Source of the DNA: Parahoeflea halophila
GTDB taxonomy: Bacteria > Pseudomonadota > Alphaproteobacteria > Rhizobiales > Rhizobiaceae
Assembly: GCF_900220985.1 (NCBI RefSeq)
Contig: NZ_OCPC01000001.1
Location: forward strand, 660,836-724,835
Direction: 5' to 3'
Length of the DNA stretch: 64,000 bases
Shown: one piece after another, positions 354 to 16,400 of the stretch
How the letters are laid out: every line of letters starts with the position of its first letter
How positions within the stretch are numbered: position 1 is the stretch's first letter
The notes under the pieces: generated by a model
Databases searched by the model: none
What the model saw: the letters and a program-made list of their open reading frames with translations, nothing else
Told to the model about the DNA's origin: nothing
Translations under genes and position numbers: made by a program

Positions 354-1123
354 GCCAGATACAATCCGAAACCGGCACTCCGGATTTTACCCGCAACGCC
401 AACCATGCCGCCACGGCCCCCGCCTATCTGTCCGTGCACGACATCCACGCCTATTACGGCGAGAGCTACATCGTCCAGGGCGTCAGTTTCAATGTGCACG
501 AAGGCGAGATCCTGGCTCTGCTCGGCCGCAACGGTGCGGGCAAGACCTCGACCCTGCGCGCCATCGCCCAGATCGGTTCGCCGGCAATGACCAGCGGCGA
601 AGTCTGGCTCGACCACCAGGCGCTGCACCTGATGAGTTCGCACGAGGCGTCCCGCGCCGGGCTATCGCTGGTGCCGGAAGACCGCCGCATCATTCCTGGC
701 CTGACGGTGGAAGAAAACATCGAACTGGCCCAGATTGCACCGCCCATCGGCTGGTCGATCGAACGGATATACGAGCTGTTCCCACGGCTGGGAGAGCGCC
801 GCAAGCAGGAAGGCGTCACGCTTTCTGGCGGCGAACAGCAAATGCTCTCGATTGGCCGGGCCCTGGCCCGCGACATCAAGGTTCTGCTTCTTGATGAGCC
901 CTATGAAGGTCTCGCGCCGGTGATCGTCGATGAGATCGAAAAGACGCTCAACATCATCAAGCAACAGGGTATCACCACGATCCTGGTCGAACAGAATGCG
1001 GTTCGCGCTCTCAAGCTTGCCGACCGCGCCGTAATTCTGGAATCAGGCGGGGTCGTGTATGACGGCACTGCCAGGGAAGTGCTCGAGAACGAGCAGTTGC
1101 GCCACGACTATCTGGCGATCTAG
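350..1123 (+). CDS. livF: ABC transporter ATP-binding protein, LivF type
   Basis: Second ATPase of a Liv/HAAT-type importer, 257 aa. Walker A is GRNGAGKT, the signature is LSGGEQQM, Walker B is VLLLDEP followed by YEGLAP, and the switch region is LVEQN, all typical of LivF. The N-terminus is about 25 residues longer than usual before the ABC domain begins at LSVHDIHAYYG. The start overlaps the livG stop. The gene ends before a strong bidirectional terminator and converges on the minus-strand catabolic operon. Family is secure, substrate is not; uptake of an aromatic or indolic acid would fit the neighbourhood but is inference. Confidence 0.9.
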   Translation: MSQIQSETGTPDFTRNANHAATAPAYLSVHDIHAYYGESYIVQGVSFNVHEGEILALLGRNGAGKTSTLRAIAQIGSPAMTSGEVWLDHQALHLMSSHEASRAGLSLVPEDRRIIPGLTVEENIELAQIAPPIGWSIERIYELFPRLGERRKQEGVTLSGGEQQMLSIGRALARDIKVLLLDEPYEGLAPVIVDEIEKTLNIIKQQGITTILVEQNAVRALKLADRAVILESGGVVYDGTAREVLENEQLRHDYLAI

Positions 1124-1244: not shown

Positions 1245-1970
1245 TCAGAGATTGATCATGCCGATGCTGGTGCCACCACAGACATAGAGCGTCTGCCCCG
1301 TGACAAAGCTGCTGGCAGGGTCGCAGAAGAACAAGAATGCGTTGCTGACGTCATCCACCGAGCCGAGACGCCCCACCGGGATCTTGTTGGCGAGCTCGGA
1401 TTCGCGCTCGCTGCCCTTCGGGATGATGCCCCAGAAATTGTCGGTCTGCACCGGGCCCGGCGCCACCACATTGACGGTGATGCCGTGCGGCGCCAATTCC
1501 AGCGCCCAGGTTCGCGCCATGCCGATCATGCCCGCTTTGGTCGCCGAGTAAGCGGTCCGGGTTGGAACACCCAGCGCGGCGCGCGACCCGTTGAACATCA
1601 CCCGGCCGAACCTGCGCGCCTTCATCGCCGGCAAGAACGCCTGCAAGAGCGTCAGTGCGGACCCCAGATGCAGTTGCGAGAGTCCGGTGATGTCCTCTGG
1701 CTTGGCCTCTTCCACCAGATTGGGCCAGATCAGCCCGGCATTGTGGACGAAATGCGTCACCTCATGCTCGTCCGCAATCTGTCGGGCGGCCTGGCTGACC
1801 GCCTCCGCATCGAGCAGATCACATGAGACGCTGATCAGCCGCTCGTGCCCCTGCTCCGGCGCGTTGCGCGACAGGTTGATCACGGTATAGCCGCGCTCGA
1901 TGAGCTTTCTTGCGAGATCGGCGCCGATGCCCTTGGATGCGCCGGTGATGACGGCTGTATGCTGACTCAT
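1245..1970 (-). CDS. Short-chain dehydrogenase/reductase (SDR), last gene of the catabolic operon
   Basis: NAD(P)-dependent oxidoreductase of the classical SDR family, 241 aa. It has an intact TGASKGIG cofactor motif at residues 9-16, an NAG motif (HNAGL) and a catalytic AYSATK segment, ending in the usual GQTLYVCGG. The ATG at 1970 was chosen because GGAG lies just upstream and translation from any earlier codon would run into the cyclase gene. It starts 2 bp after the cyclase stop. In an indole-3-acetate route it could interconvert dioxindole and isatin or reduce a carbonyl intermediate; that is inference from context, since classical SDR substrates cannot be read from sequence. Confidence 0.88.
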   Translation of the reverse strand: MSQHTAVITGASKGIGADLARKLIERGYTVINLSRNAPEQGHERLISVSCDLLDAEAVSQAARQIADEHEVTHFVHNAGLIWPNLVEEAKPEDITGLSQLHLGSALTLLQAFLPAMKARRFGRVMFNGSRAALGVPTRTAYSATKAGMIGMARTWALELAPHGITVNVVAPGPVQTDNFWGIIPKGSERESELANKIPVGRLGSVDDVSNAFLFFCDPASSFVTGQTLYVCGGTSIGMINL

Positions 1971-1972
1971 GT

Positions 1973-2764
1973 TTATTCTCCAGAACCTGTCTTGCCCGGC
2001 ACAAGTGCGAGCACCCTGAGCGGACTCCCGGTCCCGCCCTTGATCTTCAGCGGTGGCGCGATCAGCATCGCCCCCGTTGCCGGCAGCCGGTCGAGATTGC
2101 TCAGGCACTGCAGCCCGAACTTGCCGGCGCCATGCAGCAGGTAATGTGCCGGATAAGGCGGCGTGTAATGCGCCCCCTGCCCCGCATCGGTGCCGACAGT
2201 CTCGGTGCCGAAACCGCGGATATCGCGCGCGAGCAGCATTTCGATTGCGGCCGGTGTCGGCCCGGGCGAGTGCGGTCCGTCATCGGCCATGTTGAGATAC
2301 TCGGCCCCACGGCGCTTCGACCAGTCGGTGCGCATCAGCACCCAGCTATTTGCCGGAATGGGGCCATGTTCCGCTTCCCATGCAGCGATGATCTCTGGCG
2401 TCAGCTCGAAATCATCATCAGATGCCGCCCCTTCCGAGCAATCGATCACCACCACCGGGCCGACAAACATCGCCGGATCGATCTCGTCCACTGCGCCATT
2501 GGCCACATCGCGGCCCGAGACCCAGTGGATCGGCGCGTCGAAATGTGTTCCGGTATGCTCGTTCATCGAGATATTGTGCCATTTCCAGGCCGGGCCACGG
2601 CCGTCATAGGCCGAGACTTCCTCCATCCTGAACCGGGCGCACTGGCCGAATTCCGGCGGCAAGACGATCACCGGGAAATCGGGATCCAGCGTATGGGTGA
2701 GATCAACGACCTCGACCGATCCGTCACCCAGCGCAGCCGCAAGGACTGAAATGGCCTCGCTCAT
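1973..2764 (-). CDS. Cyclase-family metal-dependent hydrolase, isatin hydrolase-like
   Basis: Member of the cyclase family (PF04199), which includes kynurenine formamidase and isatin hydrolase, 263 aa. The metal-binding signature HTGTHFD is at residues 70-76 (H70, H74, D76), followed by APIHW with H80; a late GTDAGQGAHYTPPYPAHY segment carries the other conserved His residues. Isatin hydrolases open the lactam ring of isatin to isatinate with Mn(II). The start overlaps the preceding gene by four bases. Beside a Rieske oxygenase, CoA ligase, aldolase-like proteins and a MarR regulator, an isatin hydrolase of an auxin degradation pathway is the best reading; formamidase activity on another aromatic compound cannot be excluded. 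Confidence 0.8.
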   Translation of the reverse strand: MSEAISVLAAALGDGSVEVVDLTHTLDPDFPVIVLPPEFGQCARFRMEEVSAYDGRGPAWKWHNISMNEHTGTHFDAPIHWVSGRDVANGAVDEIDPAMFVGPVVVIDCSEGAASDDDFELTPEIIAAWEAEHGPIPANSWVLMRTDWSKRRGAEYLNMADDGPHSPGPTPAAIEMLLARDIRGFGTETVGTDAGQGAHYTPPYPAHYLLHGAGKFGLQCLSNLDRLPATGAMLIAPPLKIKGGTGSPLRVLALVPGKTGSGE

Positions 2765-4008
2765 GCCCCGCCTCCCGTCAGTTCCCGTTCCAGCACCTTG
2801 GCATCCTTGCGCCAGCGCTCTTGCAGGTCTTTCGCAACATCACCGCAGAACACATCCTCAAGACCTTCACCAAGCGCCGTGAGCACCGACTTTGCCAGCG
2901 CTTTCGGCGGCACTTTCGGCGGCGGCAGCGGCTGGTGCCACTCATCGTCGGTCGGACCGGTGAAGACATTGATCACCCGAAGCCCGGAGCTGCGGAATTC
3001 GGATCGAAGTGTCTGGCTAATCGACAGCGCCGCCGACTGGCTGGCGGAAAACGCTCCATAATGCGGGTCCGCCGAAAGCGCGTGCACGGAGAGCAGGTTG
3101 ACCAAGGCCACGGCGGAATTGACGCCGTCGGCCGTGCGCGACGCCATGCCCGGACCAAATGCCTGCGCCAGCCGCATCAGCCCCAGCGCATTGGTCTCGA
3201 ATTCCTCGCGCGCAAACACCGTGTCGGCGCCGAGCACGCCACCGGGGCGGACGAAGCGCGCCGTGTTGATGAGAATATCGGTCTTGCCGCCGATCTCGGC
3301 TGCAAGCCGCTGGACCGAGGAGGCATCCGTCACATCAAGCTGCACCACCGAAACCTTGTCGAGTGCGGCTATCGCCTCATGATCGGACCCGCGCCGCCAG
3401 CTTTCGGACTGGCCGACGAAGACATGCGCGGCACCGGCGGCCAGAAGCCCGTCGATCAGCGGCCGCGTCATCGGAGAGCGGATGTCGGTGATCAAGATCC
3501 GACGGTGTTTCGGGTCCGCCGTCAGGCTGCGCAATTGCGGGTCATCCGCCATGTCGGGTGTCCTTTCCACTGGCAGGGCGATCATCGCCCCCTGCCCGGC
3601 CTTGTCGAGCTTGAGATCCATGCGCAACGTGTCGCCACGCCCCACATCGCCATGCAGATGGCAAAGCACGGTCGGGCCGGCGTCCAGGCGCACCAGCCCC
3701 GAGCGCCAGGGCAGCCGCTCGCGGTAATAGGGATCGGGCGAGGCATGGATCCGCGTTTCGGCAATCAGCTTGCCCTGCCTGCCGGTCTCGCGCCACGAAA
3801 GCTTGACCGACAGGCAGGAGGAGCACGCATCCCGCGGCGGATATTGCACCGCCCCGCAATCCTCGCAGTGCTGCAATGAGAATTCACCCCGCGCGGCCGC
3901 CGCCGTCAACCCCAGCGCTGCGCGCGAGCGCATGGCAGGCGGCAGGGTAGGTACGCGCTGACGCAGTTGCGGGTTCTTCTTTTTGGGCGGCAGGAGCTTG
4001 TCCGTCAT
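2761..4008 (-). CDS. DUF35/OB-fold zinc-ribbon protein fused to a degenerate SDR domain
   Basis: Two-domain protein of 415 aa. Residues about 45-150 form a DUF35 acyl-CoA-associated OB-fold with a zinc ribbon (C48-x2-C51, C62-x2-C65) and the usual YYRERLPWRSGLVRLD stretch. Residues about 168-360 resemble an SDR Rossmann domain, but the glycine motif reads TDIRSPM (174-180) rather than TGxxxGxG, and the catalytic Tyr and Lys positions are F320 and Q324, so it is probably not a dehydrogenase. DUF35 proteins partner with Cys-less thiolases such as Ltp2 to form retro-aldolases, and the next gene upstream is such a thiolase. Start chosen at the ATG overlapping that gene's stop (ATGA at 4005-4008). 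Confidence 0.82.
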   Translation of the reverse strand: MTDKLLPPKKKNPQLRQRVPTLPPAMRSRAALGLTAAAARGEFSLQHCEDCGAVQYPPRDACSSCLSVKLSWRETGRQGKLIAETRIHASPDPYYRERLPWRSGLVRLDAGPTVLCHLHGDVGRGDTLRMDLKLDKAGQGAMIALPVERTPDMADDPQLRSLTADPKHRRILITDIRSPMTRPLIDGLLAAGAAHVFVGQSESWRRGSDHEAIAALDKVSVVQLDVTDASSVQRLAAEIGGKTDILINTARFVRPGGVLGADTVFAREEFETNALGLMRLAQAFGPGMASRTADGVNSAVALVNLLSVHALSADPHYGAFSASQSAALSISQTLRSEFRSSGLRVINVFTGPTDDEWHQPLPPPKVPPKALAKSVLTALGEGLEDVFCGDVAKDLQERWRKDAKVLERELTGGGA

Positions 4009-5174
4009 CGCCCCGCCCCCGTAATGATTGCCGCGGACGAACACAGGCCACGGTCATAATTGATCATGCCGAAACCCGAGACCATCGCGGTTTTGGCTTC
4101 GGCGACCTGGGTGCCGGCGGCCTGGCCGGTCACCTGCCGGATCGCCTCGACCAGCCCGAGATAGCCGCCGGCCGCACCCGCCTGCCCGGCTGACAATTGC
4201 CCACCCGAGGTATTGTGCGGAAAATCGCCGTCGATCGTCAGATCCCGGTCGCGCACGAACTGCGGCCCCTCGCCCTTGGCGCAGAAGCCGAGATCCTCGA
4301 ACTGCATCATCGAGATCACCGGGTAGTCATCGTATGTTTCGAGCACATCTATGGCATCGGGTCCGCACTCGGCCATCTCGTAAAGCTCGTCGACATCCAT
4401 CACCCAGCCGCCGCGCAGCTGCACCGGGTCTTCGGGAAATGCGTTGTGCCGCTCGATGGTCGAGGCGATCCGCGCATAGGCGAGACCGCGTCGCTGAGCT
4501 TCATCCTCGCGCATCACCAGAAAGCCTTCCGCTCCGGCGCAGGGCATGACACAGTCAAACAGGCCGAACGGCTCGGAAATAGGGCGGGCGGAGAGATATT
4601 GCTCCAGCGTCAGCGGCGATTTCATAATGGCATTTGGATAATGAAGCGCATTGGCCCGCTGGGCCACGGCGATGCGGCCGAAATCCTCGCGTGTGGCGCC
4701 ATACTCGGCCATATAGGCGTCGGCGATCAGTGCAAAGCTGGCGTTTGGTCCACCCGATCCATAGGGGTAGGAGGCATCCATCGCAAAGCGCGAAAACGAC
4801 GAAAGCAGCTGGCGGAAACTGTCGATCCGGTTGGCGTCACCCGCCACGCAGGCGACCACGTCGACATCGCCTGCCTGCACCGCACGCGCCGCCCGCCTGA
4901 GCGCCACAACACCGCTGGCCCCGCCCATCGGAATGCTGTCGAGCCATCGCGGGCTCAGCCCCAGATGCTGGGTCAGCCCCACCGGCGTGTCGGGAAACAG
5001 CGTGAAGCTCGACACCGAAAACCCGTCCAGCTCGCGCGGTGAAAGGCCAGCTACATCGAGCAGCTGCTTCAGCGCGCGCGCGATCCACCAATGCGCCGTT
5101 TCCTGCGAATAGCGCACATAGGGCACGGAGACGGGAGCCGTCACCACCACGCCCTCATAGCTCTGACGCTTCAC
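4005..5174 (-). CDS. Thiolase-superfamily protein lacking the nucleophilic Cys (Ltp2/SCP-x-like, probable retro-aldolase)
   Basis: 389-aa thiolase-fold protein. The position of the nucleophilic Cys is a glycine (GGASG, residues 84-88), and the late motif NTSGGQLSAGQ (321-331) lacks the catalytic GHP histidine of true thiolases. The YDDYP (281-285) and EDLGFCAKGEG segments resemble steroid side-chain aldolases of the Ltp2 type, which cut beta-hydroxyacyl-CoA esters together with a DUF35 partner. That partner is the next gene, translationally coupled. Proposed role: release of acetyl-CoA from a 3-hydroxy-oxindole-3-acetyl-CoA to give isatin. The family call is strong; the reaction is inferred from residue losses and context. 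Confidence 0.85.
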   Translation of the reverse strand: MKRQSYEGVVVTAPVSVPYVRYSQETAHWWIARALKQLLDVAGLSPRELDGFSVSSFTLFPDTPVGLTQHLGLSPRWLDSIPMGGASGVVALRRAARAVQAGDVDVVACVAGDANRIDSFRQLLSSFSRFAMDASYPYGSGGPNASFALIADAYMAEYGATREDFGRIAVAQRANALHYPNAIMKSPLTLEQYLSARPISEPFGLFDCVMPCAGAEGFLVMREDEAQRRGLAYARIASTIERHNAFPEDPVQLRGGWVMDVDELYEMAECGPDAIDVLETYDDYPVISMMQFEDLGFCAKGEGPQFVRDRDLTIDGDFPHNTSGGQLSAGQAGAAGGYLGLVEAIRQVTGQAAGTQVAEAKTAMVSGFGMINYDRGLCSSAAIITGAGR

Positions 5175-6814
5175 GCGGCTGTCCGCTTCTTCATGGCGCG
5201 CGTATCCACCGTTGCCGGATCCTCGACCAGCCTCTCGGCCAGTTGCTTGAGTTCACGCCGCTGGATTTTCTGCGTGGAGGTCAGCGGCAGCGCTTCGACG
5301 AAGGCAACATAGCCCGGTGCCTTGTAATAGGCGAGCTGTTCAAGGCACCAGCCTACGATCTCGCCCGCCAGTGCCGGCCCCGCATCGCCCTCGACCTTGA
5401 GACACGCAAACACCTCGTCGCCACGCACCGGGTCCGGCACCGCCGCCACCGCTGCGGCCTTGACCGCCGGGTGCCGCATCAGCGCCGATTCCACTTCCAC
5501 GGCCGCAATATTCTCGCCTGACCTCCGAATCACGTTCTTCTTGCGGTCGACGAAGAACATCGAGCCGTCATCCTCGCGCCGGACGATATCGCCGGTGTGA
5601 AACCAGCCATCAGCCCAGGCCTCTGCCGTGGCTTCCCGGTTCTTGAAATAGCCCGAGAAGAAACCGCGTTGTGGCTCTTCTCCCTTGCGCCGGACCAGCA
5701 ATTCACCGGGGCCGTTCCGGCTTTCGGCGCCCTCGGCATCGACAATCATCACGTCGAGTTCGTCGCCAGGCTTGCCGAGGCAACTCTCGCCCACCCGGCG
5801 CGGCAATTGATTGGCGCAAATCACGGCCCCCGCCCCGGTTTCCGTCATCGCCCAGGCCTCGACCAGCGGGAAGCCGAAGCGTTCCTCGAAGCTAGCATGC
5901 AGTTTCGGATCAACGCCTGCGCCAAAACCGAACCGGACCGAATGATCACGGTCTGCAGCGCTTTCGGGTGCTCCCATCAGCATCGATGGCATCACGCCGA
6001 GATAATGCAGGCAGGTGGCGCCGCTCTCCCGCACGCTTTCCCACCAGCTCGACGGATGGAACCGGTCGAGCACGGTCAGGCACCCGCCAACGGCGACCAT
6101 CGCCATGAAGGAATAGGCCATCGCGTTCATGTGAAAGATCGGCAACGGCGTGATCATCCGCTCGCCATCCTCGGAGAGCGCACACAGCCCGCCGGCTTGC
6201 GCATACCAGCGGCCCGCCTCGAGAAAATAGCTGTTGGTCAGGATGCAGCCCTTGGGGTTGCCTGTGGTTCCTGAGGTGTAGAGCAGCGCCGCCTCCAGCG
6301 TCTCGCCCTCGATTGCGCCACCCCTCGTTTCCACCTGCAAGGCAACCGGCCCCGCCGTCCCGGGGTGAGGCACGGGATCTCCCGGTGTGATCACCGGCAC
6401 CGCCAGGCCTGCTTCCTTGGCAGCCGCGGCCAGGCCTTGGCACCGGGGTTCGATCGCAACCATCAGCGACGGCTCGGAGTGTCTAGCCATATAGGTGAGT
6501 TCGGAATGCCGCAAATCCGGATTGACCGGCACCGCCGAAGCGCCGATCCGGTTGAGCGCAAGCAGCCAGACAAAGAACTCAGGCCGGTTTTCAAGCAGAA
6601 GCATCACCCGGAACCCGGCGCCATAGCCACTTTGCTGCAAGGCGGCCGCAAGCTCCGTCACCTGATCCGAGACCTCGCGGTAGCTGGTCTCGCCTGACTG
6701 AATGCCGTAGATGCCGGCGGTCTCGTCCAGGACGTTGAACAATGGACGCTCAGGATAACGACCGGCGGTCGCGGCGAAGGCCTGCCAGATGGTCTGTGTA
6801 CAGGCCTCGATCAT
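5171..6814 (-). CDS. AMP-dependent acyl-CoA synthetase/ligase
   Basis: ANL-superfamily ligase, 547 aa, expected to activate a carboxylic acid to its CoA ester through an acyl-adenylate. The P-loop-like motif YTSGTTGNPKG is followed by the AWAMTETGAG segment, WFHTGDIVRREDDG, and the hinge/C-terminal DRKKNVIRRSGENIAAVEVE with catalytic lysine near the end (STQKIQRRELK). It overlaps the flanking genes by four bases on each side. Because the downstream partners act on a CoA ester, it probably activates the oxygenated aromatic or indolic acid made by the oxygenase. Substrate cannot be assigned from sequence alone. Confidence 0.88.
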   Translation of the reverse strand: MIEACTQTIWQAFAATAGRYPERPLFNVLDETAGIYGIQSGETSYREVSDQVTELAAALQQSGYGAGFRVMLLLENRPEFFVWLLALNRIGASAVPVNPDLRHSELTYMARHSEPSLMVAIEPRCQGLAAAAKEAGLAVPVITPGDPVPHPGTAGPVALQVETRGGAIEGETLEAALLYTSGTTGNPKGCILTNSYFLEAGRWYAQAGGLCALSEDGERMITPLPIFHMNAMAYSFMAMVAVGGCLTVLDRFHPSSWWESVRESGATCLHYLGVMPSMLMGAPESAADRDHSVRFGFGAGVDPKLHASFEERFGFPLVEAWAMTETGAGAVICANQLPRRVGESCLGKPGDELDVMIVDAEGAESRNGPGELLVRRKGEEPQRGFFSGYFKNREATAEAWADGWFHTGDIVRREDDGSMFFVDRKKNVIRRSGENIAAVEVESALMRHPAVKAAAVAAVPDPVRGDEVFACLKVEGDAGPALAGEIVGWCLEQLAYYKAPGYVAFVEALPLTSTQKIQRRELKQLAERLVEDPATVDTRAMKKRTAA

Positions 6815-7290
6815 GGCAGCAGCTGGATGTTGCGGAAGGCGGCGTCACTGTTGAGGATGTCGACCCGCTTGTTGGCAATCCTCAGCTTGCCGTCGACCAG
6901 CGCCAGCTCGTGGCGCGCCGTCAGCGCGAGCAACGTTTGCTCGTCGAGACGGGTTTCGACATAATGCATGAAGGTCGTGGTCACGAAGGTTCCTGCTGCC
7001 TCGTCCATTTCATCGACATAGGGCCGCTGGATGACATGGTGGCAACGGCTTTTGGGCTTTTGCGAAAACGTCCGCGCCCCGTTGAGCCGCTCGACCCGCA
7101 ATTTGAGCATGAACAGGTCTTCATACATCAGCGACGTGACGTTGAGCGGATCCGTCTGCTTGTAATCGAGTGGCATCCAGTAGTGCCCATCCTTGAGCCA
7201 AAGCGCCAGCCACTCGTCGTAGCGGCCCTCGTCGAGCATCCGCACTTCGTCATAGATGAAATCGATCAGCTGTTCTTTCGAAACGCTCAT
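6811..7290 (-). CDS. Aromatic-ring-hydroxylating dioxygenase beta subunit (IadE-like by context)
   Basis: Small subunit of a three-component Rieske oxygenase, 159 aa, with the cone-shaped NTF2-like fold expected from length and motifs (DEGRYDEWLALW, EDLFMLKLRVERL, SRCHHVIQ, HYVETRLDEQ). Beta subunits are structural and have no metal site. The start overlaps the alpha-subunit stop (ATGA) and the stop overlaps the ligase start, giving tight coupling with stoichiometric alpha:beta synthesis. Named IadE-like only because the operon resembles iad auxin loci. Confidence 0.9.
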   Translation of the reverse strand: MSVSKEQLIDFIYDEVRMLDEGRYDEWLALWLKDGHYWMPLDYKQTDPLNVTSLMYEDLFMLKLRVERLNGARTFSQKPKSRCHHVIQRPYVDEMDEAAGTFVTTTFMHYVETRLDEQTLLALTARHELALVDGKLRIANKRVDILNSDAAFRNIQLLP

Positions 7291-8630
7291 TCCGCAGCCT
7301 CCCGCACGTCATCCATGTCCCAGGTCATGAATTTGACCCAGGCATCGAACTGGTTGCGCATCTGCCGCTCGGTGGTGCCGTTCTCGACCGCTTCCTGCGT
7401 GAAATCCTCACCTTCTTCGTAAAGCCGCTGAATGTTGACCCATTCAAGCCCATCCGACTGCAGCCCCTCCTGGGCGCGTTCGTACATTTCCAGGTCGTCA
7501 TGCCCGACAATCGAGGTCGGCGCGTTGATCATCCGGTTGTACATCGCCGTGCGCTGGGTCAGTTCGTCCGGTCCATCGACGAGACGGTAGATATAGCTTT
7601 CCACGATCGTCTTGTCTGCTGCCAGCGGAATAAACACACGCAGCTGCTGGATCGGGCCCTTGATCATGATGTTGGGGAAATAGACCGTGTTGTGACGGTT
7701 TTCGCCGAGAATTTCCTTGGCTTTTTCCTCGCCATAGGCCTCGACCATCTTCTCCATGTAACCCGGAATTGCCGAATAGTTGGAGTGGATGGAATGGTGC
7801 ACGCCGGTGTGGCCATGACCATTGGGCCAGGTCCGGATCCCCATGTTCTCGAAGAACTCGTAAGGGGACATGAAGGGCGCGATGATTTCCATCGCAGCCG
7901 GCAGTGGCGTGCCTTCCGGCATGTCCAGCTCTTCCCAGAGCTTGACGGCGGTTCCGGCGGAACTCTCGTGCGCCACCATCGGGTGGCAGGTATCGGTCTG
8001 GTTCTCGACCAGCATTTTCCAGTTGCAGTGATGCATGTATCTGAGCGGCGGCCCGGCCACTTCCAGCCGTCCCGCGGGGGAGCGGTCGACCATGTTGTCG
8101 ATCGACGACAGCGAGCCTCCGAAAAACTCCTCGAACGAAATCCCTTCTTCGGCCAGGCGGCAGAAAATGAAACCACGATAGTTCCTGACCTCACCCACCG
8201 CGCGCATGCCCTTGCCGTTCTCGGTGTTTTCGAGGCCCGTGTTGGCGTAGCCCTTCTTCAGCGGAATTGCGAGCAGACAGCCATCGGTCTTGAACGACCA
8301 GGCATGGTAGGGGCAGCGGAAGAACTTGCCGGTGTTGCCGGCCCGGTCGATGACGATCTTGGTTCCCTTGTGCGGGCAGCGATTGTGCAGCACATGCACT
8401 TCGCCATCGCTGTGGCGAACCTGGATCACGGGCTGATCGCCGACCTGGGTGGAGAAGTAATCGCCCTTGTTCGGTGTCTGGCTCTCATGGCCGACAAACA
8501 CCCACGCATTGGCGAACAGGTGCTTCATCTCGAGCCGGTAGATTTCCTGGTCCGTATAGACGTCCCGGTGAACTTCGTTGCCGCGATACAAGGCCTTGAT
8601 CGCGGCTGGATTGTCTGCATAGCGTCCCAT
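7287..8630 (-). CDS. Rieske-type aromatic-ring-hydroxylating dioxygenase alpha subunit (IadD-like by context)
   Basis: Catalytic subunit, 447 aa. The Rieske [2Fe-2S] ligands are C85/H87 (RCPHKG) and C106/H109 (CPYHAW). The mononuclear iron site is visible as D213-x2-H216-x4-H221. I start at the ATG at 8630 because GGGGAGG lies 5-11 bases upstream; longer forms would overlap the reductase gene. It receives electrons from the adjacent reductase and pairs with the beta subunit. In iad loci the orthologous pair oxidises indole-3-acetate to 2-oxindole-3-acetate; benzoate-type substrates cannot be ruled out from sequence, so the substrate rests on the surrounding genes. Confidence 0.92.
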   Translation of the reverse strand: MGRYADNPAAIKALYRGNEVHRDVYTDQEIYRLEMKHLFANAWVFVGHESQTPNKGDYFSTQVGDQPVIQVRHSDGEVHVLHNRCPHKGTKIVIDRAGNTGKFFRCPYHAWSFKTDGCLLAIPLKKGYANTGLENTENGKGMRAVGEVRNYRGFIFCRLAEEGISFEEFFGGSLSSIDNMVDRSPAGRLEVAGPPLRYMHHCNWKMLVENQTDTCHPMVAHESSAGTAVKLWEELDMPEGTPLPAAMEIIAPFMSPYEFFENMGIRTWPNGHGHTGVHHSIHSNYSAIPGYMEKMVEAYGEEKAKEILGENRHNTVYFPNIMIKGPIQQLRVFIPLAADKTIVESYIYRLVDGPDELTQRTAMYNRMINAPTSIVGHDDLEMYERAQEGLQSDGLEWVNIQRLYEEGEDFTQEAVENGTTERQMRNQFDAWVKFMTWDMDDVREAAE

Positions 8631-8641
8631 GGCCACCTCCC

Positions 8642-9610
8642 CTAAAGATCGAGTACGAGGCGGGCGGATTTTGCCCTGCTCACGCATATCTGGATCACAT
8701 TACCTTCAGCCTTCTCGCTGTCGCTGAGCACGACATCCCGATGATCCGGAATGCCATCAATGACATCCGTCCGGCAGATGCCGCAATCGCCGCGCAGGCA
8801 ATCATGCATCAGGTCGACACCGCCAGCCTCGAGCACTTCCACGATGGTCTTTCCCGGCGGTATTTCGAAAACCTCGCCGGTGGCATGCACCTCAACTTCG
8901 AAGACCCGATCCCCGGCCAGCTCGGCTGCGGATGTAAACAGTTCGAAATGGATCCGGTCCTGGGTGATGCCGGCCGCTTCCATCGCTGATTTCACAGCAT
9001 CGATCATGCCCTTGGGCCCGCAGACATAGACGTGCTCGTCACTGCCCACCGAGCCGGCAAGCGCTGCGATATCCAGTGCAGTCTCGGGGACATCATCGAA
9101 ATGCATGGTGAGAAAGTCGTTGAAACGTTCACCGAGTTCGTCCCGGTAGGCCATTGCGGCGGCAGTGCGGCAGGCATAGTGAAACCGGAACGGGGTCCCG
9201 GCATCCTGCAGCGCACTTGCCATGCTGATCATCGGCGTGATGCCGATGCCGCCCGCAATCAGCAGCGCGGGCTTGTCCGCGAGAAGCGGAAAATCGTTGT
9301 CGGGGGCTGTAGCCGCGACCTCGTCGCCGGGCTTGAGACCATGCATGAAGCTCGAACCGCCGCTGCTTTTCGCCTCGAGCTGAACCGCGAACCGATAGCT
9401 GACCGGGGCAGCCCCATCCGGTATGGGTTCGAAATCAATCAGCGAGTAGGAGCGTTCGCCGGCCGGCAGCGCGAACTTGACATGGGCGCCGGGCGTGTAA
9501 CTTGCGAGCGTCCCACCATCGCTGCGCACAAATTCCAGTTCGCAAATGGACTGTGTCAGCATGCGTGCCGACGCGACTTTCAATTTGACCGGTTCAACCA
9601 CTGTCTCCAT
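8642..9610 (-). CDS. Oxygenase reductase, phthalate dioxygenase reductase/VanB type (IadC-like by context)
   Basis: Electron-transfer component for the Rieske oxygenase, 322 aa. The N-terminal flavin-binding barrel contains RSYSLIDFEP, the NAD domain contains LIAGGIGITPMISM and YVCGPKGMIDAV, and a plant-type [2Fe-2S] ferredoxin domain is C-terminal (CLRGDCGIC and a distal Cys). This FMN-NAD-2Fe2S order defines the PDR/VanB group and differs from BenC, whose ferredoxin is N-terminal. First gene of an eight-gene operon; its stop is 11 bp before the alpha-subunit start. Oddity: AAAGGAG touches the ATG with no spacer, so initiation at the GTG of codon 4 is possible. Confidence 0.9.
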   Translation of the reverse strand: METVVEPVKLKVASARMLTQSICELEFVRSDGGTLASYTPGAHVKFALPAGERSYSLIDFEPIPDGAAPVSYRFAVQLEAKSSGGSSFMHGLKPGDEVAATAPDNDFPLLADKPALLIAGGIGITPMISMASALQDAGTPFRFHYACRTAAAMAYRDELGERFNDFLTMHFDDVPETALDIAALAGSVGSDEHVYVCGPKGMIDAVKSAMEAAGITQDRIHFELFTSAAELAGDRVFEVEVHATGEVFEIPPGKTIVEVLEAGGVDLMHDCLRGDCGICRTDVIDGIPDHRDVVLSDSEKAEGNVIQICVSRAKSARLVLDL

Positions 9611-9627
9611 CTCCTTTGCCAGGAAAC

Positions 9628-9639
9628 ATGAATTTTCAT
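9628..9639. promoter_or_regulatory. Candidate MarR operator upstream of the oxygenase operon
   Basis: Inverted repeat ATGAA-N2-TTCAT in the 108-bp divergent gap, 18 bp upstream of the reductase start and about 80 bp upstream of marR. AT-rich sequence around it contrasts with the GC-rich genes. A site here could block the minus-strand promoter. It is a pattern-based guess. Confidence 0.4.
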
Positions 9640-9718
9640 ATAAATCTTGTCAAGAGGTTTTTGTTGAAGATACAGTGCCGGAATGCAATGAAAGCGCTCC
9701 GAAACACGCGGATTCCGG

Positions 9719-10189
9719 ATGAACAATTCAGTCGACGCCCCCACCCCCCCCTTCGTTCCCAATTATCTGCTTTATCTGCTGGCGGCTGCCAGCGAAGCAG
9801 CAAGCGAGCGTTTTCATGCGCATGTCCGCAGCAAGGGTCTGCGTGTTCCCGAGTGGCGCGTGATGGCCTGTCTCATCGATACCGATGGCTCAATGGTCAC
9901 CGAACTCGCGCGCTACGCCATGATCGAACAGTCGCGGCTCACCAAAATCATCATCCAGATGGACACCCGGGGCCTCGTCTCCCGCCGCAGCGATCCGAAG
10001 GATGGCCGCCGGGTCCGGGTCTTCCTGACTCCGCAGGGACGCGCACTCGCAGAGGAACTGGTTGCAGACGCAAGGATCGACGAACAGGAGCTGCTCAAGT
10101 CGTTCCAGGGCGGTCAGGGTGATCATATCAAGGACACCTTGCGGGCTCTGATCTGGCACCTCGAATCAGGAGACCTGAAGCAGGGCTGA
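9719..10189 (+). CDS. MarR-family transcriptional regulator (IadR-like by context)
   Basis: 156-aa winged-helix regulator. The DNA-binding region runs from VPEWRVMACL through VTELARYAMIEQSRLTKIIIQMDTRGLVSRRSDPKDGRRVRVFLTPQGR, a textbook MarR HTH-wing. It is divergent from the eight-gene oxygenase operon and lies 126 bp upstream of the TRAP transporter genes. MarR regulators of aromatic catabolism usually repress until the substrate binds; in iad and iac auxin loci the regulator is a MarR protein that binds indole-3-acetate. Location and operon content support that role here, but ligand identity is inferred. Confidence 0.9.
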   Translation: MNNSVDAPTPPFVPNYLLYLLAAASEAASERFHAHVRSKGLRVPEWRVMACLIDTDGSMVTELARYAMIEQSRLTKIIIQMDTRGLVSRRSDPKDGRRVRVFLTPQGRALAEELVADARIDEQELLKSFQGGQGDHIKDTLRALIWHLESGDLKQG

Positions 10190-10235
10190 GCAAAGGCGAA
10201 TGTGCGAAATCCCGAAAAAGATGAATAGGCGACAT

Positions 10236-10264
10236 TGCATGTTTTTATATGATAATGCATGTTT
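10236..10264. promoter_or_regulatory. Candidate operator: paired TGCATGTTT repeats before the TRAP operon
   Basis: Two copies of TGCATGTTT (10236-10244 and 10256-10264), spaced 20 bp start to start, i.e. two helical turns, with AT-rich sequence between. They end 51 bp before the dctP start. Each contains the palindrome TGCATG/ATGCAT. Position suits repression by the adjacent MarR protein. Confidence 0.45.
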
Positions 10265-10315
10265 CTGCTTTCGGGGTCAGGAGTAGCACCTGGCCTCACC
10301 ATTGGGAGGATACGC

Positions 10316-11338
10316 ATGAGAAAGATGAGCACCCTGTTGGCCAGCACGATGCTGGCTGTCGGATTTTCCGCGTCGGCGATGGCCGCCGATATCAACCTGA
10401 CCATTTCGAGCTGGCTGCCGCCTACGCATCCGATCAACACCGAGATGCTGGAGGGCCTCGTTGACATGATGGAAGAGGCTACTGACGGCCAGGTCAGCGG
10501 TGAGATTAAGTTGGGCCTCGCCCCGCCCCCGGCGCAGATGGACTTGATTCTCGACGGCGCTGCCGACATCACAATCATCTTCAACGGCTACCAGCCTGGC
10601 CGCTTCGTCGGCACCAAGCTGATCGAATTGCCGGGCTATGAAGGCAACGCCGAGGCCGCCTCCGTCGCCTACTGGCGGGCGCACGAAAAATACCTGGCCC
10701 AGCTCGACGAGTTCAAGGGCACCAAGGTCATCGCTCTCAACACCCACGGCCCCGGCCAGGTTCACTCCAACAAGCCGGTCGCAAAGCTTGAGGATCTGCA
10801 GGGCCTCAAGACCCGCCTTGGCGGCGGTGTGTCGGCCGATGTCGGTGCCGAACTCGGCCTCGTCGGCATTCAGGTGCCCGCACCCAAGGTCTACGAGACC
10901 CTGTCATCAGGCGCTGCCGATGCCGTGGCGATGAACATGGGCGAGCGCATCAGCTTCAAGCTCAACGAAGTTGCCAAGAACGTCTACGAAATGCCCGGCG
11001 GCTTCTACCGCGGCGCCTTTGCCGTGCTGATGAGCCAGGAAACCTTTGACGCCATGCCCGAAGACGTGAAGTCGGCGCTCGAGGAAAAGGTCTTCGGCGA
11101 ACCCGCATCCCGCATGATGGGCGCAGCCTGGGACGAAAGCGACAACAAGGCGCGCGAAGCCACCATGGCTGCGGGTGACAACAACATCGTCACCGCCAGC
11201 GCCGAGGATCAGGCCAAATTCGCCGAAATGGCGGCCCGCGTCCGGACCAAGGTCCTGGGCGAAATCTCCGACCTCGGCATCGATGCCGACGCAGCGGCGG
11301 AAATGGTCAAATCGACCATGGCATCCTACGGCAAGTGA
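10316..11338 (+). CDS. TRAP transporter substrate-binding protein (DctP family)
   Basis: Periplasmic solute receptor, 340 aa. A Sec signal peptide is clear (MRKM, hydrophobic core, cleavage near SAMA-AD). The mature part has DctP features such as NLTISSWLPPTHPINTEML and the P-KVYETLSSGAADAV stretch. GGGAGG lies 6-11 bases before the chosen ATG. The gene heads a dctPQM-type operon. It should bind an organic acid for Na+-driven import; the co-located MarR regulator and oxygenase operon suggest the ligand is the aromatic or indolic acid those genes degrade. Confidence 0.92.
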   Translation: MRKMSTLLASTMLAVGFSASAMAADINLTISSWLPPTHPINTEMLEGLVDMMEEATDGQVSGEIKLGLAPPPAQMDLILDGAADITIIFNGYQPGRFVGTKLIELPGYEGNAEAASVAYWRAHEKYLAQLDEFKGTKVIALNTHGPGQVHSNKPVAKLEDLQGLKTRLGGGVSADVGAELGLVGIQVPAPKVYETLSSGAADAVAMNMGERISFKLNEVAKNVYEMPGGFYRGAFAVLMSQETFDAMPEDVKSALEEKVFGEPASRMMGAAWDESDNKAREATMAAGDNNIVTASAEDQAKFAEMAARVRTKVLGEISDLGIDADAAAEMVKSTMASYGK

Positions 11339-11397
11339 TATCATTGCGGGGGCACCTCTGTTGTGCCCCCGCACTCCTGCCCCGCAAGGAGCCTTCC

Positions 11398-11904
11398 ATG
11401 AAGTCCATTGCCAAATTGCTGAACCGTTTGGCGGAGCTGCCGATGCTGCTCGCCGCAGCGACCCTGTTCGTCCTCATGGTGCTGACATTTTCCGACGTCA
11501 TCATGCGCTCCACCTTCTCGGCGCCGATTGAGGCCGCCACCGAGCTGACCCGCATTGCCATGGCCGTGATCGTGTTCTCCGCTCTCCCGGTGGTCTCCGG
11601 CCGGGCCAACCACATTGTCGTCGACCTGCTCGATCCGCTGTTTCACCGCCTGCGCATCGAACGTGTGCTTGAAGGCCTGATCACGCTTATCTGCGGTGTC
11701 CTTCTCTACTGGCCCGCCATGCGCTCGTTTGATCTCGCGGCACGCGCCAGAAACTATGGTGACCTGACCGAGTATCTCGCCATTCCGGTGTTCTACATCA
11801 CCTGGTTCATCGCCTTCATGACCCTTGTCACCGCGCTTTCGATGGCGCTGCGCGGACTTGTCATCCTCTTCAAGCCAGACCTGCTCCGAGGCGCAAATGA
11901 TTGA
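11398..11904 (+). CDS. TRAP transporter small permease subunit (DctQ family)
   Basis: 168-aa membrane protein with four predicted transmembrane segments (LLAAATLFVLMVLTF, IAMAVIVFSAL, LITLICGVLLYW, FYITWFIAFMTL). These match DctQ topology. It starts 59 bp after dctP, after an AAGGAG ribosome-binding site, and its end overlaps dctM by 8 bp. DctQ scaffolds the large permease and helps receptor docking. Confidence 0.9.
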   Translation: MKSIAKLLNRLAELPMLLAAATLFVLMVLTFSDVIMRSTFSAPIEAATELTRIAMAVIVFSALPVVSGRANHIVVDLLDPLFHRLRIERVLEGLITLICGVLLYWPAMRSFDLAARARNYGDLTEYLAIPVFYITWFIAFMTLVTALSMALRGLVILFKPDLLRGAND

Positions 11905-13210
11905 ATCCCTGATTGGTTTTGCCGCAGTGCTGCTCCTGGTGCTGCTGCGCATGCCGATTGCCTTTGCCATGGCAATTGTCGGCATGGCCGGCATGACCTA
12001 CGAGACCAATTTCCGCGCCGCGATCTCGCTAGTCTCCCGGCTGATCATCGACACCAGCCAGGATTACGGTCTCTCGGTGGTGCCGCTGTTCATTCTCATG
12101 GGCCTGTTTGTCAACAAGGGCGGCATCAGCCGCGAGCTCTACCAGGTCTCCAATGCCTTTCTCGGCCATTTCCGCGGCGGTCTCGCCATGGCCACCATTG
12201 CCGCCTGCGGTGGCTTTGCTGCCATTTGCGGTTCATCGCTTGCGACCGCCGCCACCATGTCCAAGGTGGTGATGCCGGAGATGCGCAAGCTTGGTTACTC
12301 CGACCAACTTTCGTCCGCCTCGATCGCGGCCGGTGGTACGCTCGGCATCCTGATCCCGCCTTCGGTCATCCTGGTCATTTACGGCCTGCTGACCGAAACC
12401 TCGATCGGCAAGTTGTTCATCGCCGGCATCATCCCGGGCATTCTCGGCATCGTGTTCTATCTGATTGCGGTCCAGATCTCGGTTTTCCGAAACCCCGCCG
12501 CCGGTCCGGCGGGGAGGCGCTTCAGCCTGCTTGAGAAGCTAGAGGCCTTGCGTGGCGTCTGGTCGGTGTTGCTGCTCTTCTTCCTCGTCATCGGCGGGCT
12601 TTACGGCGCGCTCGATGTCTGGCCGCTCAACCTCACCTTCTCGCCCACAGAGGCCGCCGGCATGGGCGCCATGGGCGCCTTTCTGATTGCCCTGTCGCGC
12701 GGCTCTCTGACGTTTGGCGAAACCATCAGTGTTCTCAAGGAAACAGCGATCACCACCGCGCAGCTCTTCAGCGTACTGATCGGCGCCTGGATCTTCTCCA
12801 ACTTCGTCAATTACGCAGGCCTGCCCGAGGCACTCAAGGACATCATCACCACTGCCGAGCTGTCCCCCTGGCTGGTGATGGCAGTGATCATCCTGATCTA
12901 TGTGGCGCTGGGCTGCGTCTTCGAAAGCCTTTCGATGCTGCTTCTGACCGTCCCGATCTTCTTTCCGATTGTCATCGGGCTCGGTTTCGACCCGGTCTGG
13001 TTTGGCATTATTGTCGTCGTGGTGACCGAAATCAGCCTGATCACACCGCCGGTCGGTCTCAACGTCTTCATTCTCAAAAGCGTGGTCGGCGACATTTCCG
13101 TCGGCACCATCTTCAAGGGTGTGACGCCGTTCTGGATGATGGACATCCTCCGGCTGCTGATCCTGTTGCTGTTCCCCTGGCTGGTGCTGTTCCTGCCGTC
13201 GCAGATGTGA
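11897..13210 (+). CDS. TRAP transporter large permease subunit (DctM family)
   Basis: 437-aa polytopic membrane protein that carries out Na+-coupled transport. It shows DctM hallmarks: MPIAFAMAIVGMAG near the N-terminus, GGFAAICGSSLATAATM, SIAAGGTLGILIPPS, and a C-terminal TEISLITPPVGLNVF. The start overlaps dctQ by 8 bp. No terminator is evident after it; the 196 bp to the convergent RND gene hold nothing I recognise. Confidence 0.92.
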   Translation: MIESLIGFAAVLLLVLLRMPIAFAMAIVGMAGMTYETNFRAAISLVSRLIIDTSQDYGLSVVPLFILMGLFVNKGGISRELYQVSNAFLGHFRGGLAMATIAACGGFAAICGSSLATAATMSKVVMPEMRKLGYSDQLSSASIAAGGTLGILIPPSVILVIYGLLTETSIGKLFIAGIIPGILGIVFYLIAVQISVFRNPAAGPAGRRFSLLEKLEALRGVWSVLLLFFLVIGGLYGALDVWPLNLTFSPTEAAGMGAMGAFLIALSRGSLTFGETISVLKETAITTAQLFSVLIGAWIFSNFVNYAGLPEALKDIITTAELSPWLVMAVIILIYVALGCVFESLSMLLLTVPIFFPIVIGLGFDPVWFGIIVVVVTEISLITPPVGLNVFILKSVVGDISVGTIFKGVTPFWMMDILRLLILLLFPWLVLFLPSQM

Positions 13211-13406: not shown

Positions 13407-16400
13407 CTACTCCGCAGGCTCACCATGAGCGCTGGCAACAGCTGGCTTTTTCCCAAGCCCGACGCGCGCCTTCATACGGTTCCACCAGGCAATCACCTTG
13501 CTGTCCTTCGACCGCGTCACGATCATCAAAAGCGACGGTGTCACCACCAGTGTCAGAATGGTCGAGAACGCCAGCCCGAACACGATGGCGCTTGACAGCG
13601 AAATCCACCATTGGGTCGAGGGCGCGCCATAGGTCGTCTCATGCGCCATCAGCTCGAGATTGACCCCGAAGGCAATCGGCAACACGCCCAGGATCGCCGT
13701 CACCGCGGTCAGCATGACCGGCCGCACACGCTCGCGGCAGGTCTCGAGGATCGCATCGAGCTTGTCCCTGCCCTCGCGCCGCAAATGATCGTAAGTGTCG
13801 ATCAGCACGATGTTGTTGTTCACCACCACGCCGGCAAGCGCGATGATCCCGATCCCGGTCATCACCACGCCAAACGGCTGCCCGGTAATCAGCAGGCCAA
13901 GGAACACACCGATGGTCGACATCACCACCGCCGACAGCACCAGCGCCACGGAGAGGAACCGGTTGAACTGCGCCAGAAGCACGACAAAGATCAGGAACAC
14001 GGCCGCGCCCGCCGCCTTGGACAGGAACTCGCCCGCTGCCTTCTGCTCTTCGTCCTCACCTGCAAGCTTCCAGCGGATCCCCTGATCTTCCAGATTGGCT
14101 TTTTCCAGTTCCGCGACGATGCCCTGGCGCACCGCGTCCGCCTGAATGCCTTCGCTGATACCCGCTTCAACGATGACCGTGCGCACGCCGTCGATACGGG
14201 TCAAGGTGCCGACACTTGGTGCCGCAACACGGGTGACGAAATTCGAGATCGGCACCGAGCCCTGGGCGGTTTCGATACGCAGATCATCCAGTGTCGAAAG
14301 GGTCCGGCGTTCCTCCGGCAACCTGAGGCGAATGTCCACGGCATCGTCCACACCGGCCGGCCGGTAGTCGGTCAGTTTCAGGCCGGTGGTCACCAGCTGC
14401 ACCACCGTGCCCACCGATGACGGACCGATGCCGTAGCGGGCGGCGACAGAGCGGTCGACCCGGATCTCCCAGTCGACACCGGGCGGCGGCAGGCCGTCGG
14501 AAACATCGATCACGTTCGGAGTGGCTTCAAGCTGCGCCGCAACCCTGCGCGCGACCTCGGACAGTCCTGCCGGGTTCGCCGCAGAAAGCTGGATCTGGAT
14601 CGCCTTGCCCGTCGGAGGACCGCCCTGGGGAACCTTGACTTCGATATCGATTCCGGGAAACCCTGTGAGCTCGCGGCGGAAATCCTCGAGGATCTCGCCC
14701 GCCGGTTTGCGCTCGCGCCAATCGACGAATTCATACTGGATGACGCCGACCACATCTTCGGCGACGTTGTTGCCGCCGCCGCTGACATTTCCGACACGGG
14801 TATAGACGCTGGTCAGCCCAGGCCAGCCGATGATCTGCTCCTCGACCATGCGCACCGCATTGTCTTTCTCCTCAAGCGAAAGATTGCCGCGCGCATGCAC
14901 GTAGAGAAGGCCATAATCCGGCTCGACATCGGGGAAAAACTCGACCCCGTTGCCATACTTGCCATAGGCTACCGGCACTACTACCAGCGCGGCCAGCGTC
15001 AGGAACACGACAAGGAACGGATGTCGCACGGCGCGGGCGACAAACTTCATGTAGAGCCCGTCACGGGTTGGTCCGTCCTCGATCATCGGCTTGGCGAACA
15101 AGGCACCAAGGGTCGGAGTAAAGACGAGCGCGTAAAGCAACGATGCCGACAGGGTCGCAATCAGCGTGATCGGCATGAATTTCATGAACTCGCCGACGAC
15201 CCCTGGCCAGAACAACAGCGGCGAAAACGCCGCCACGCGGGTCAGCGTCGCCGCCGTCACTGGCCCGGCCATTCGTTTTGCGGCCAGCGAAAAGGCTTCT
15301 TTCCGTTCCATGCCTTCGCTCATCCGGCGCTCGGCAAATTCGGTAACGATGATGGCGTCATCCACCAGCATGCCCACGGCCAGGATCAGGCTGAACAAGA
15401 CCACGATATTGACCGTAAGCCCTGCCAGCGAGAGAGCCAGGATTCCCATCAGGAACGAGGCCGGGATGGCAAATCCGATCAGCAGGGAGGCACGGCCCGA
15501 CAGGGCGTAGAGGATGACGATGAAGACTAGGATCACGGCCGTGAGAACCGAGTTCTGCAAATCCCCCAGCAACTGCCGGATCGATGTCGATTTATCCTGG
15601 CTGAAGCTGATGATCGCACCTTCAGGCAGCAGGTCCTTGTAAGTGTTCGCGACTTGTTTGACCGCGTCGACGGTCTCGATCAGGTTGGCGCCGACGCGCT
15701 TTGAAACCTCGATCGCAATCGCCGGCTGGCCGTTGAGCCGCGTAATTGTCTCGGCATCCTTGAACGAGGCGCGGATCGAAGCCAGGTCGCGGGCCCGTAC
15801 CACGGCGTTCGAACCGGCGATGATCGGCAGGTTTGCCACGTCCTCGATGGTCTCGATGAGCAGCGGAACCTTGATCGAGTAACGGCCTTCGTCGCCTTCC
15901 AACGCCCCGGCAGCTACCACCGAGTTCGACGCATTGACGCCGGCAATCAGCTGGTCGAGCTGCATACCGTAGGACGACAGCTTCACCGGGTCGATGATGA
16001 CCTCTACAAGATCATCCCGTGCGCCCTGCAGCTTGGCCTCGAGAACGCCGTTGACTTCTTCGAGCCGGTCCCTGAGCTCGCGCGCCGCGGTTGTCAGCGC
16101 CCTCTCCGGCACATCGCCCGCCAGGGTAACCACCAGAACCGGAAACTCGGAGATATTGACCTCGTTGACTGTCGGCTCATCCGCGCCCTGCGGCAGCTCC
16201 GGCTTGGCGTCGGAGACCTTGGTGCGCACATCATCGAGCGCCTTGGCCAGATCGGCACCGGCGTTGAACTCGATCAGCACGTTGCCGCCACCCTGATAGG
16301 CGGTCGAGGTCAGCTTCTTGATACCAGTGATGTTCTGGAGCTTCGTCTCCATCGGACGAAGCAGCAGCCGCTCGGAATCCTCAGGCGAAATACCCTGATA

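Follow-up and report, generated by a model that had tools for sequence, protein, structure and literature searches.

How the side chain of auxin (indole-3-acetate, IAA) is taken off during bacterial degradation is the question raised by a gene cluster of Parahoeflea halophila. The cluster occupies positions 1245-13210 of the 64,000-nucleotide stretch of DNA analyzed here, which we call the window (NCBI RefSeq assembly GCF_900220985.1, contig NZ_OCPC01000001.1, positions 660,836 to 724,835). It is an auxin-degradation gene set in a marine bacterium and consists of iadC to iadJ, the divergent regulator gene iadR, and a DctPQM importer of the tripartite ATP-independent periplasmic (TRAP) type. 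The minus strand is transcribed in the order iadC, iadD, iadE, iadF, iadG, iadH, iadI, iadJ, and the plus strand in the order iadR (MarR family), DctP, DctQ, DctM. The best explanation of the whole, which we consider quite probable, is an iad-type IAA regulon in which the thiolase-like protein IadG and its partner IadH would remove the side chain by retro-aldol cleavage. Genes were called from a listing of open reading frames (ORFs) and by Pfam and NCBIfam domain searches. These recovered every component listed in the original prediction, which had been made from the sequence alone: a Rieske oxygenase set, a coenzyme A (CoA) ligase, a thiolase without its Cys, a DUF35 protein, a cyclase, a short-chain dehydrogenase/reductase (SDR), a MarR regulator, and a TRAP importer.

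By homology of its proteins, the locus is an iad-type IAA degradation locus, one more example of an already known and widespread type; we filed it as iad-like despite the absence of iadAB from the locus. The Rieske oxygenase alpha subunit IadD (7287..8630, minus strand) gave 590 bits against Variovorax IadD 9o71 (58% identity over 436 aa) and 585 bits against 7yls, while the next enzyme, a phenylpropionate dioxygenase, gave 134 bits, so a benzoate or phenylpropionate oxygenase identity for IadDE was rejected. The cyclase-family protein IadI (isatin hydrolase A, PF04199; 1973..2764, minus strand) was 80% identical over 252 aa (483 bits) to Labrenzia aggregata isatin hydrolase A (LaIHA, 5nnb), and no notable difference between the two was seen. 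The isatin hydrolase signature consists of HxG[T/A]HxDxPxH, a WxW pocket, and a GLQC/GLAS motif, and LaIHA is an assayed isatin hydrolase with a Km for isatin of 16 uM (PMC6117287; this and the other papers are cited from the sections available to us). IadI carries HTGTHFDAPIH, WKW, and GLQC at these places. For IadR (9719..10189, plus strand), the nearest solved relative was the MarR protein 3cdh of Ruegeria pomeroyi, with 57.9% identity over 140 aa. That protein binds IAA with a KD of 0.237 uM, and R. pomeroyi degrades IAA (PMC9613470). IadR also matched five of the seven contact residues of Variovorax MarR_73, including all three carboxylate contacts (Ser29, His33, and Arg47); the other two positions are Tyr and Tyr in the window and Tyr and Leu in R. 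pomeroyi. The auxin reading of the original prediction therefore stands, since the nearest solved homologues are Variovorax IadD, isatin hydrolase A, and an IAA-binding MarR, and none of them is a benzoate enzyme. Modules resembling the IadG region without IadDE (loci L050, L095, and L096) would suit a locus whose main substrate is a different bicyclic or aryl acid, broken down through the same reactions, with IAA at most a side substrate, but the match of IadD, IadI, and IadR to IAA-pathway counterparts at 58-80% and the IAA degradation by R. pomeroyi, with its tight IAA-binding IadR, make this very unlikely.

The published account of the pathway comes from Variovorax. In the available sections of a 2025 preprint (PMC12633357), deletions of iadCDE, iadF, iadG, iadH, iadI, and iadJ each lowered anthranilate; loss of iadF, iadG, iadH, or iadI led to a compound C10H9NO4, and loss of iadI also to C8H7NO2. 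There, IadDE acts as a monooxygenase and IadJ as a dehydrogenase leading to dioxindole-3-acetate, the names given are ketothiolase for IadG and alcohol dehydrogenase for IadH, and the side chain is said to be removed “reductively”; in these sections annotation is the sole basis for assigning the side-chain step. According to the same source, the first product is not 2-oxindole-3-acetate, so this compound, proposed in the original prediction as a marker, would be a poor one. The main text of the preprint contains no word starting with “retro” or “DUF35”. Among the matches examined from our searches of the open literature, with subscription papers outside their coverage, we saw no statement of a retro-aldol mechanism for the iad side chain, and no paper joining DUF35, thiolase, and auxin came up. 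On chemical grounds, dioxindole-3-acetyl-CoA would be a beta-hydroxy thioester with a tertiary hydroxyl, and its retro-aldol cleavage would give isatin and acetyl-CoA, which we regard as the likely product pair. Thiolysis as a beta-ketoacyl-CoA would be impossible, because dioxindole-3-acetyl-CoA would offer no ketone to attack.

The protein that could perform this cleavage is IadG (4005..5174, minus strand), which has a thiolase fold and in which Pfam detects just Thiolase_C_1. For IadG, IadH, and IadJ, we aligned rows drawn from 107 loci at a coverage of at least 90%, with identical proteins dropped and near-duplicates of one species and paralogous loci kept. The nucleophile position is Gly85 in the window, and among the 94 IadG rows it is Gly in 92 and Ser in 2, never Cys; with the nucleophilic Cys gone, an active ketothiolase was rejected as the main reading of IadG. 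The motif YDDY (residues 281-284, beginning with Tyr281) is present in all 94 rows and in 13/13 rows of a second set (one of which is the window protein and two the same gene), and the thiolases of our tree read HDxF or HDAA at this place. The best sequence match in the PDB was 9myr (166.7 bits), which is the retro-aldolase CtSal (PMC12329534), followed by 4u4e (153 bits), Ltp2 (126), a Pyrococcus thiolase (119), and the thiolase BbsB (113.7). Foldseek with the AlphaFold model of IadG (predicted local distance difference test score, pLDDT, of 84) placed Sal at the top by E-value, with Ltp2 in the next two places. In the 48-row tree, from which locus L019 was dropped by the row filter, 7 thiolase-side rows were split from the 41 rows without Cys at 100/100; those 7 include both PDB thiolases, and six of them have the Cys and one, on a long branch, lacks it. 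IadG falls in a 30-row YDD(Y/F) clade (99/99); the placement of this clade beside CtSal and a single relative has 87/96, below the firm-support mark of the tool. Homology thus supports IadG as the putative enzyme of the retro-aldol step.

The active site of IadG appears to be a variant of its own. Sal requires Tyr302 and Cys304, and the corresponding residues of Ltp2 are Tyr294 and Tyr344 (PMC12329534). IadG matches both Gln positions of Sal, but neither known catalytic acid, as Asp283 stands at the position of Sal Cys304 and no Tyr is found at the position of Ltp2 Tyr344. From this alignment Asp283 is the likely catalytic acid, and the Tyr-Asp pair is a guess of ours. We read IadG as Sal/Ltp2-like in mode but as a separate subgroup that would belong to neither characterized clade. 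A sister family of IadG (37-44% identity) at loci L018, L019, and L020 also carries YDDY, and no match to IadH was found at these three loci; the neighbors there we take to be a CoA-transferase-like gene and ABC importer genes. This family may be a retro-aldolase that acts on another substrate.

The second protein of the proposed pair is IadH (2761..4008, minus strand). The original prediction had listed a DUF35 protein; the DUF35 domain is there (zf-ChsH2 at residues 36-67 and OB_ChsH2 at 72-130), and the protein is a fusion in which an SDR-like domain with an apparently degenerate catalytic site follows at about 165-411. The partner adjoins IadG, with an overlap of 4 bp between iadH and iadG. 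From 594 confirmed IadG loci, we compared the 80 whose IadG most resembled that of the window, and IadH was found in each of the 58 of these that were fully flanked (neighbor genes being counted at an identity of at least 35% and a coverage of at least 60%). The zinc cysteines are kept in 85/85 IadH rows. In the cofactor loop TGxxxGxG, the first Gly is lost in all 85 rows (Asp in 82), the second is present in 2 and the third in 16, and of the catalytic pair Lys is kept in 1 row and Tyr in 7. The window protein reads TDIRSPMT in the loop and FSASQ at the place of YxxxK, so it lacks the classical SDR motifs. In contrast, IadJ (SDR dehydrogenase; 1245..1970, minus strand), whose role is taken from PMC12633357, has TGxxxGIG, Ser, and YxxxK intact, and its relatives keep Tyr and Lys each in 76/77 rows and the loop glycines in 77/77. 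An active classical SDR was accordingly held unlikely for IadH, as the loop Gly is lost in all rows and Tyr and Lys in most. The SDR-like part is more likely a scaffold or substrate-holding domain, to judge from these residues. Public plasmid annotation names IadH an “SDR family” oxidoreductase in most of the rows listed, a name that reveals neither the DUF35 part nor the degeneration of the active site.

A stand-alone partner occurs at locus L013, where an IadG relative (66% identity) has as its neighbor a 131-aa protein whose only Pfam domain is zf-ChsH2, with no SDR part. A reduction by IadH would thus not be needed in principle, because the aldolase partner at this one locus has no SDR part. 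Some kilobases off, on the opposite strand, L013 also encodes a cyclase whose isatin hydrolase motif is of the GLAS form.

Several observations weigh against retro-aldol cleavage by IadG and IadH and have to be set beside the evidence above. On its face, the C8H7NO2 in the Variovorax iadI mutant (PMC12633357) suits a reduction. The template modelling score (TM-score) of the IadG model was 0.84-0.86 to the benzoylsuccinyl-CoA thiolase BbsB and 0.85 to Sal, and by these models the fold alone cannot separate a retro-aldolase from a thiolase; in addition, the loop 326-329 and two other loops of the model are of low confidence. In Sal, neither Ala nor Ser nor His could stand in for Cys304 (PMC12329534). 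YDDY is also found in IadG relatives outside iad loci, and the motif does not fix the substrate. As to IadH, 12 further rows, mostly betaproteobacterial (one gene twice), have lost the first Gly in 12/12, yet they keep Lys in 8, Tyr in 3, and both in 2, and the Variovorax-like row reads FSASK; judged from the alignments, the loop has decayed throughout and the catalytic pair unevenly. The IadH model (pLDDT 86.8) has an SDR fold with 5u4s as best match (TM-score 0.89-0.90 by target), and 5u4s was solved with NADP yet without the Tyr in the alignment, which makes cofactor binding by IadH possible.

Two other explanations draw on these points. Were IadG to work as a genuine ketothiolase and IadH as an alcohol dehydrogenase, they would together with IadF remove the side chain reductively and yield dioxindole, as in the preprint; the naming there, the C8H7NO2 that accumulates without iadI, the equal TM-scores, and the Lys or Tyr retained in some IadH rows fit this, but a Cys at the nucleophile position in 0/94 IadG rows, a substrate that would be beta-hydroxy and not beta-keto, and the first loop Gly lost in every IadH row of both sets, with Tyr and Lys mostly lost, make it quite unlikely. 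The SDR-like domain of IadH could instead be active by non-classical chemistry and reduce the isatin from the retro-aldol step to dioxindole within the complex, before hydrolysis. This would account for C8H7NO2 and agrees with the retained SDR fold and with the NADP of 5u4s, but the loss of catalytic residues in IadH, the zinc-ribbon protein that alone accompanies the IadG relative of L013, and the grouping of IadI with isatin hydrolases, which suits isatin over dioxindole given the Km of LaIHA for isatin, speak against it, and we consider it unlikely.

Under the retro-aldol explanation, the pathway would run as follows. IadCDE would oxygenate IAA, and IadJ would dehydrogenate the hydrated product to dioxindole-3-acetate, both roles being transferred by homology from Variovorax. 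IadF (AMP-forming acyl-CoA ligase by Pfam and NCBIfam; 5171..6814, minus strand) would make the CoA ester of dioxindole-3-acetate. Bound to the DUF35 domain of IadH, IadG would then perform the retro-aldol cleavage to isatin and acetyl-CoA, in which Tyr281 would take the proton of the 3-hydroxyl and Asp283, at the place of the catalytic Cys of Sal, would protonate the enolate. The SDR-like part of IadH would be no working classical dehydrogenase, and IadI, by homology to the assayed enzyme, would hydrolyze isatin to isatinate. The dioxindole in Variovorax iadI mutants could be isatin reduced by other cell enzymes. The route encoded in the locus is complete only as far as isatinate. The original prediction had inferred the retro-aldol route to explain the thiolase and DUF35 genes; the kinship of IadG to Sal and Ltp2, the lost nucleophile, and the DUF35 partner favor this inference, while its support is at the level of homology and the route ends at isatinate.

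The nearest precedents for such a pair are the steroid side-chain aldolases Sal-Shy and Ltp2-ChsH2, in which Shy and ChsH2 supply the DUF35 part. They share with IadG-IadH the thiolase fold, the missing nucleophilic Cys, the Tyr of a YDxx motif, and the DUF35 partner. They differ in that IadG has YDDY versus YDCY (Sal) or YDHF and a presumed indole substrate, and in that the DUF35 domain of IadH is fused to an SDR-like domain but that of Shy to a MaoC domain. Going further, we would give even chances to the proposal that IadG-IadH represents a third type of catalysis among thiolase-fold retro-aldolases (Tyr-Asp, versus Tyr-Cys in Sal and Tyr-Tyr in Ltp2). It would cleave dioxindole-3-acetyl-CoA straight to isatin and acetyl-CoA with no reduction needed, dioxindole being a shunt product; the pseudo-SDR half would hold the aldolase or the product, and the wider YDDY clade would comprise retro-aldolases that act on different substrates. 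Removal of auxin by bacteria influences how roots grow, and root bacteria are being engineered to perform it (PMC12633357). Should IadG-IadH prove to be a retro-aldolase, the step would be balanced in carbon as acetyl-CoA plus isatin and would need no reductant as cofactor, the annotation of many loci would change, and a new active-site type would join the DUF35 aldolases.

The arrangement of the locus was conserved. Among the 58 fully flanked loci, iadI was found in 58, iadF in 56, iadD and iadJ in 54 each, iadE in 53, iadC in 49, iadR in 44, and DctP in 30; all of iadC to iadJ were present in 47, and 45 of these 47 were collinear on one strand. The arrangement is therefore not due to chance, because the neighbors recur across these loci. 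Conversely, iadG was present in 8/8 iadD-bearing genomes checked. The likeness to the iad locus of Variovorax paradoxus CL14/CL014 (PMC9613470, PMC12633357) lies in the C-J gene set and the MarR regulator; a Variovorax-like genome, with an IadD 94% identical to that of CL14, agrees with the window in the order of iadC, D, E, F, G, H, and I and in having IadH as a DUF35-SDR fusion. The window differs in its TRAP importer, whereas Variovorax has IadK2, a binding protein of the ABC type for aromatic acids (PMC10374108). The iad-like locus of R. pomeroyi (L097) shows the same arrangement of TRAP genes, iadR, and iadC-J, with proteins 51-79% identical, but iadAB-like genes lie there about 1 kb from the TRAP genes. 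The loci L050, L095, and L096, of 19 kb, carry iadF-G-H-I modules without iadDE, and the side-chain module seems to be used there with other entry enzymes.

A shared operator would tie the two gene groups into one regulon. The proposed IadR operator before iadC (9623..9644, minus strand; TTTATATGAAAATTCATGTTTC) is a 22-nt palindromic site that recurs before the TRAP genes (10244..10265, plus strand; TTTATATGATAATGCATGTTTC) with 20 of 22 positions alike, and the best match in 300 resampled pairs was 17/22. A pattern built from both sites matched only those two within the window. YATGA-N4-TCATR occurred in 45/51 iadC-iadR gaps (three loci being duplicates), compared with 0.03 expected. The matrix built on 41 iadC-iadR sites was applied upstream of TRAP in 25 loci with a TrapP identity of at least 60% (three duplicates dropped), and its scores exceeded the 99th percentile for resampled sequence in 25/25; it also found sites in several further loci, of both betaproteobacterial and alphaproteobacterial origin. 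In the whole genome there were three operator-like sites, two of them the window sites, and we regard the third (contig 7, 8.5 kb) as unrelated or a chance match. For MarR_73, a 24-bp site has been placed in the interval from iadR to iadA (PMC9613470). On the other side, the strict pattern was found upstream of TRAP in 6 of 48 regions, and the matrix found no site in the Variovorax-like locus. The “one regulon” of the original prediction is supported by this predicted palindrome before iadC and the TRAP genes, here and in relatives. From the palindromic site before each of the two divergent units, IadR would repress both iadCDEFGHIJ and the TRAP importer, and it would be released on IAA binding, as suggested by the IadR of R. 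pomeroyi and Variovorax. That the TRAP system imports IAA is proposed from co-regulation alone, which tempers this part of the explanation. The operator could serve to search marine Alphaproteobacteria for genes under IAA control.

The absence of iadAB also counts against a plain iad assignment, as these genes were used as exclusive iad markers (PMC9613470); they are not in the window locus, and IorAB-like homologues lie about 207 kb away. Homologues of iadAB were found in 17/18 Hoeflea genomes searched and iadG in 9/18, and a crude ORF pick placed IadA-like genes near iad genes in at least 28 of 98 loci and IadB-like genes in at least 22. IadAB, which are IorAB-like 2-oxoacid oxidoreductases, are a candidate enzyme for isatinate to anthranilate; against this, they are general in Hoeflea, and the nine-gene set of Variovorax, without iadAB, suffices, with anthranilate made from a segment lacking them (PMC9613470, PMC12633357). 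Since iadAB serve in PMC9613470 for sorting loci and are dispensable in the Variovorax set, we kept the iad-like filing. At L107 and L091 (Marinicaulis and an alphaproteobacterial metagenome-assembled genome), iadA-B-MarR-F-G-H form one run, followed at L107 by I-J-D-E, and the IadD proteins of these loci are 45-47% identical to that of the window.

The remaining catabolic genes are iadE (Rieske oxygenase beta subunit, PF00866; 6811..7290) and iadC (NAD-binding/2Fe-2S (Fer2) reductase by Pfam and NCBIfam; 8642..9610), both on the minus strand. Longest-ORF starts were too early for several genes, and homologues suggest 1970 for iadJ, 4008 for iadH, and 8630 for iadD (longest ORF from 8687); with the starts that we chose, 4-bp overlaps occur at 5/7 junctions among the eight genes iadC-J. 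On the plus strand follow DctP, the TRAP substrate-binding protein of the proposed IAA importer (PF03480; 10316..11338, start inferred), DctQ (PF04290; 11398..11904), and DctM (PF06808; 11897..13210). A Liv-type ABC importer operon (a Peripla_BP_6 binding protein, permease-like genes, and two ATPases; G000:C2:656715-660836 and window 6-1123) converges on iadJ, and the matrix scan found no IadR-like operator at these genes at the left edge of the window. Directly beyond the TRAP genes lies an AcrB-type RND transporter (PF00873) at window 13407-16550.

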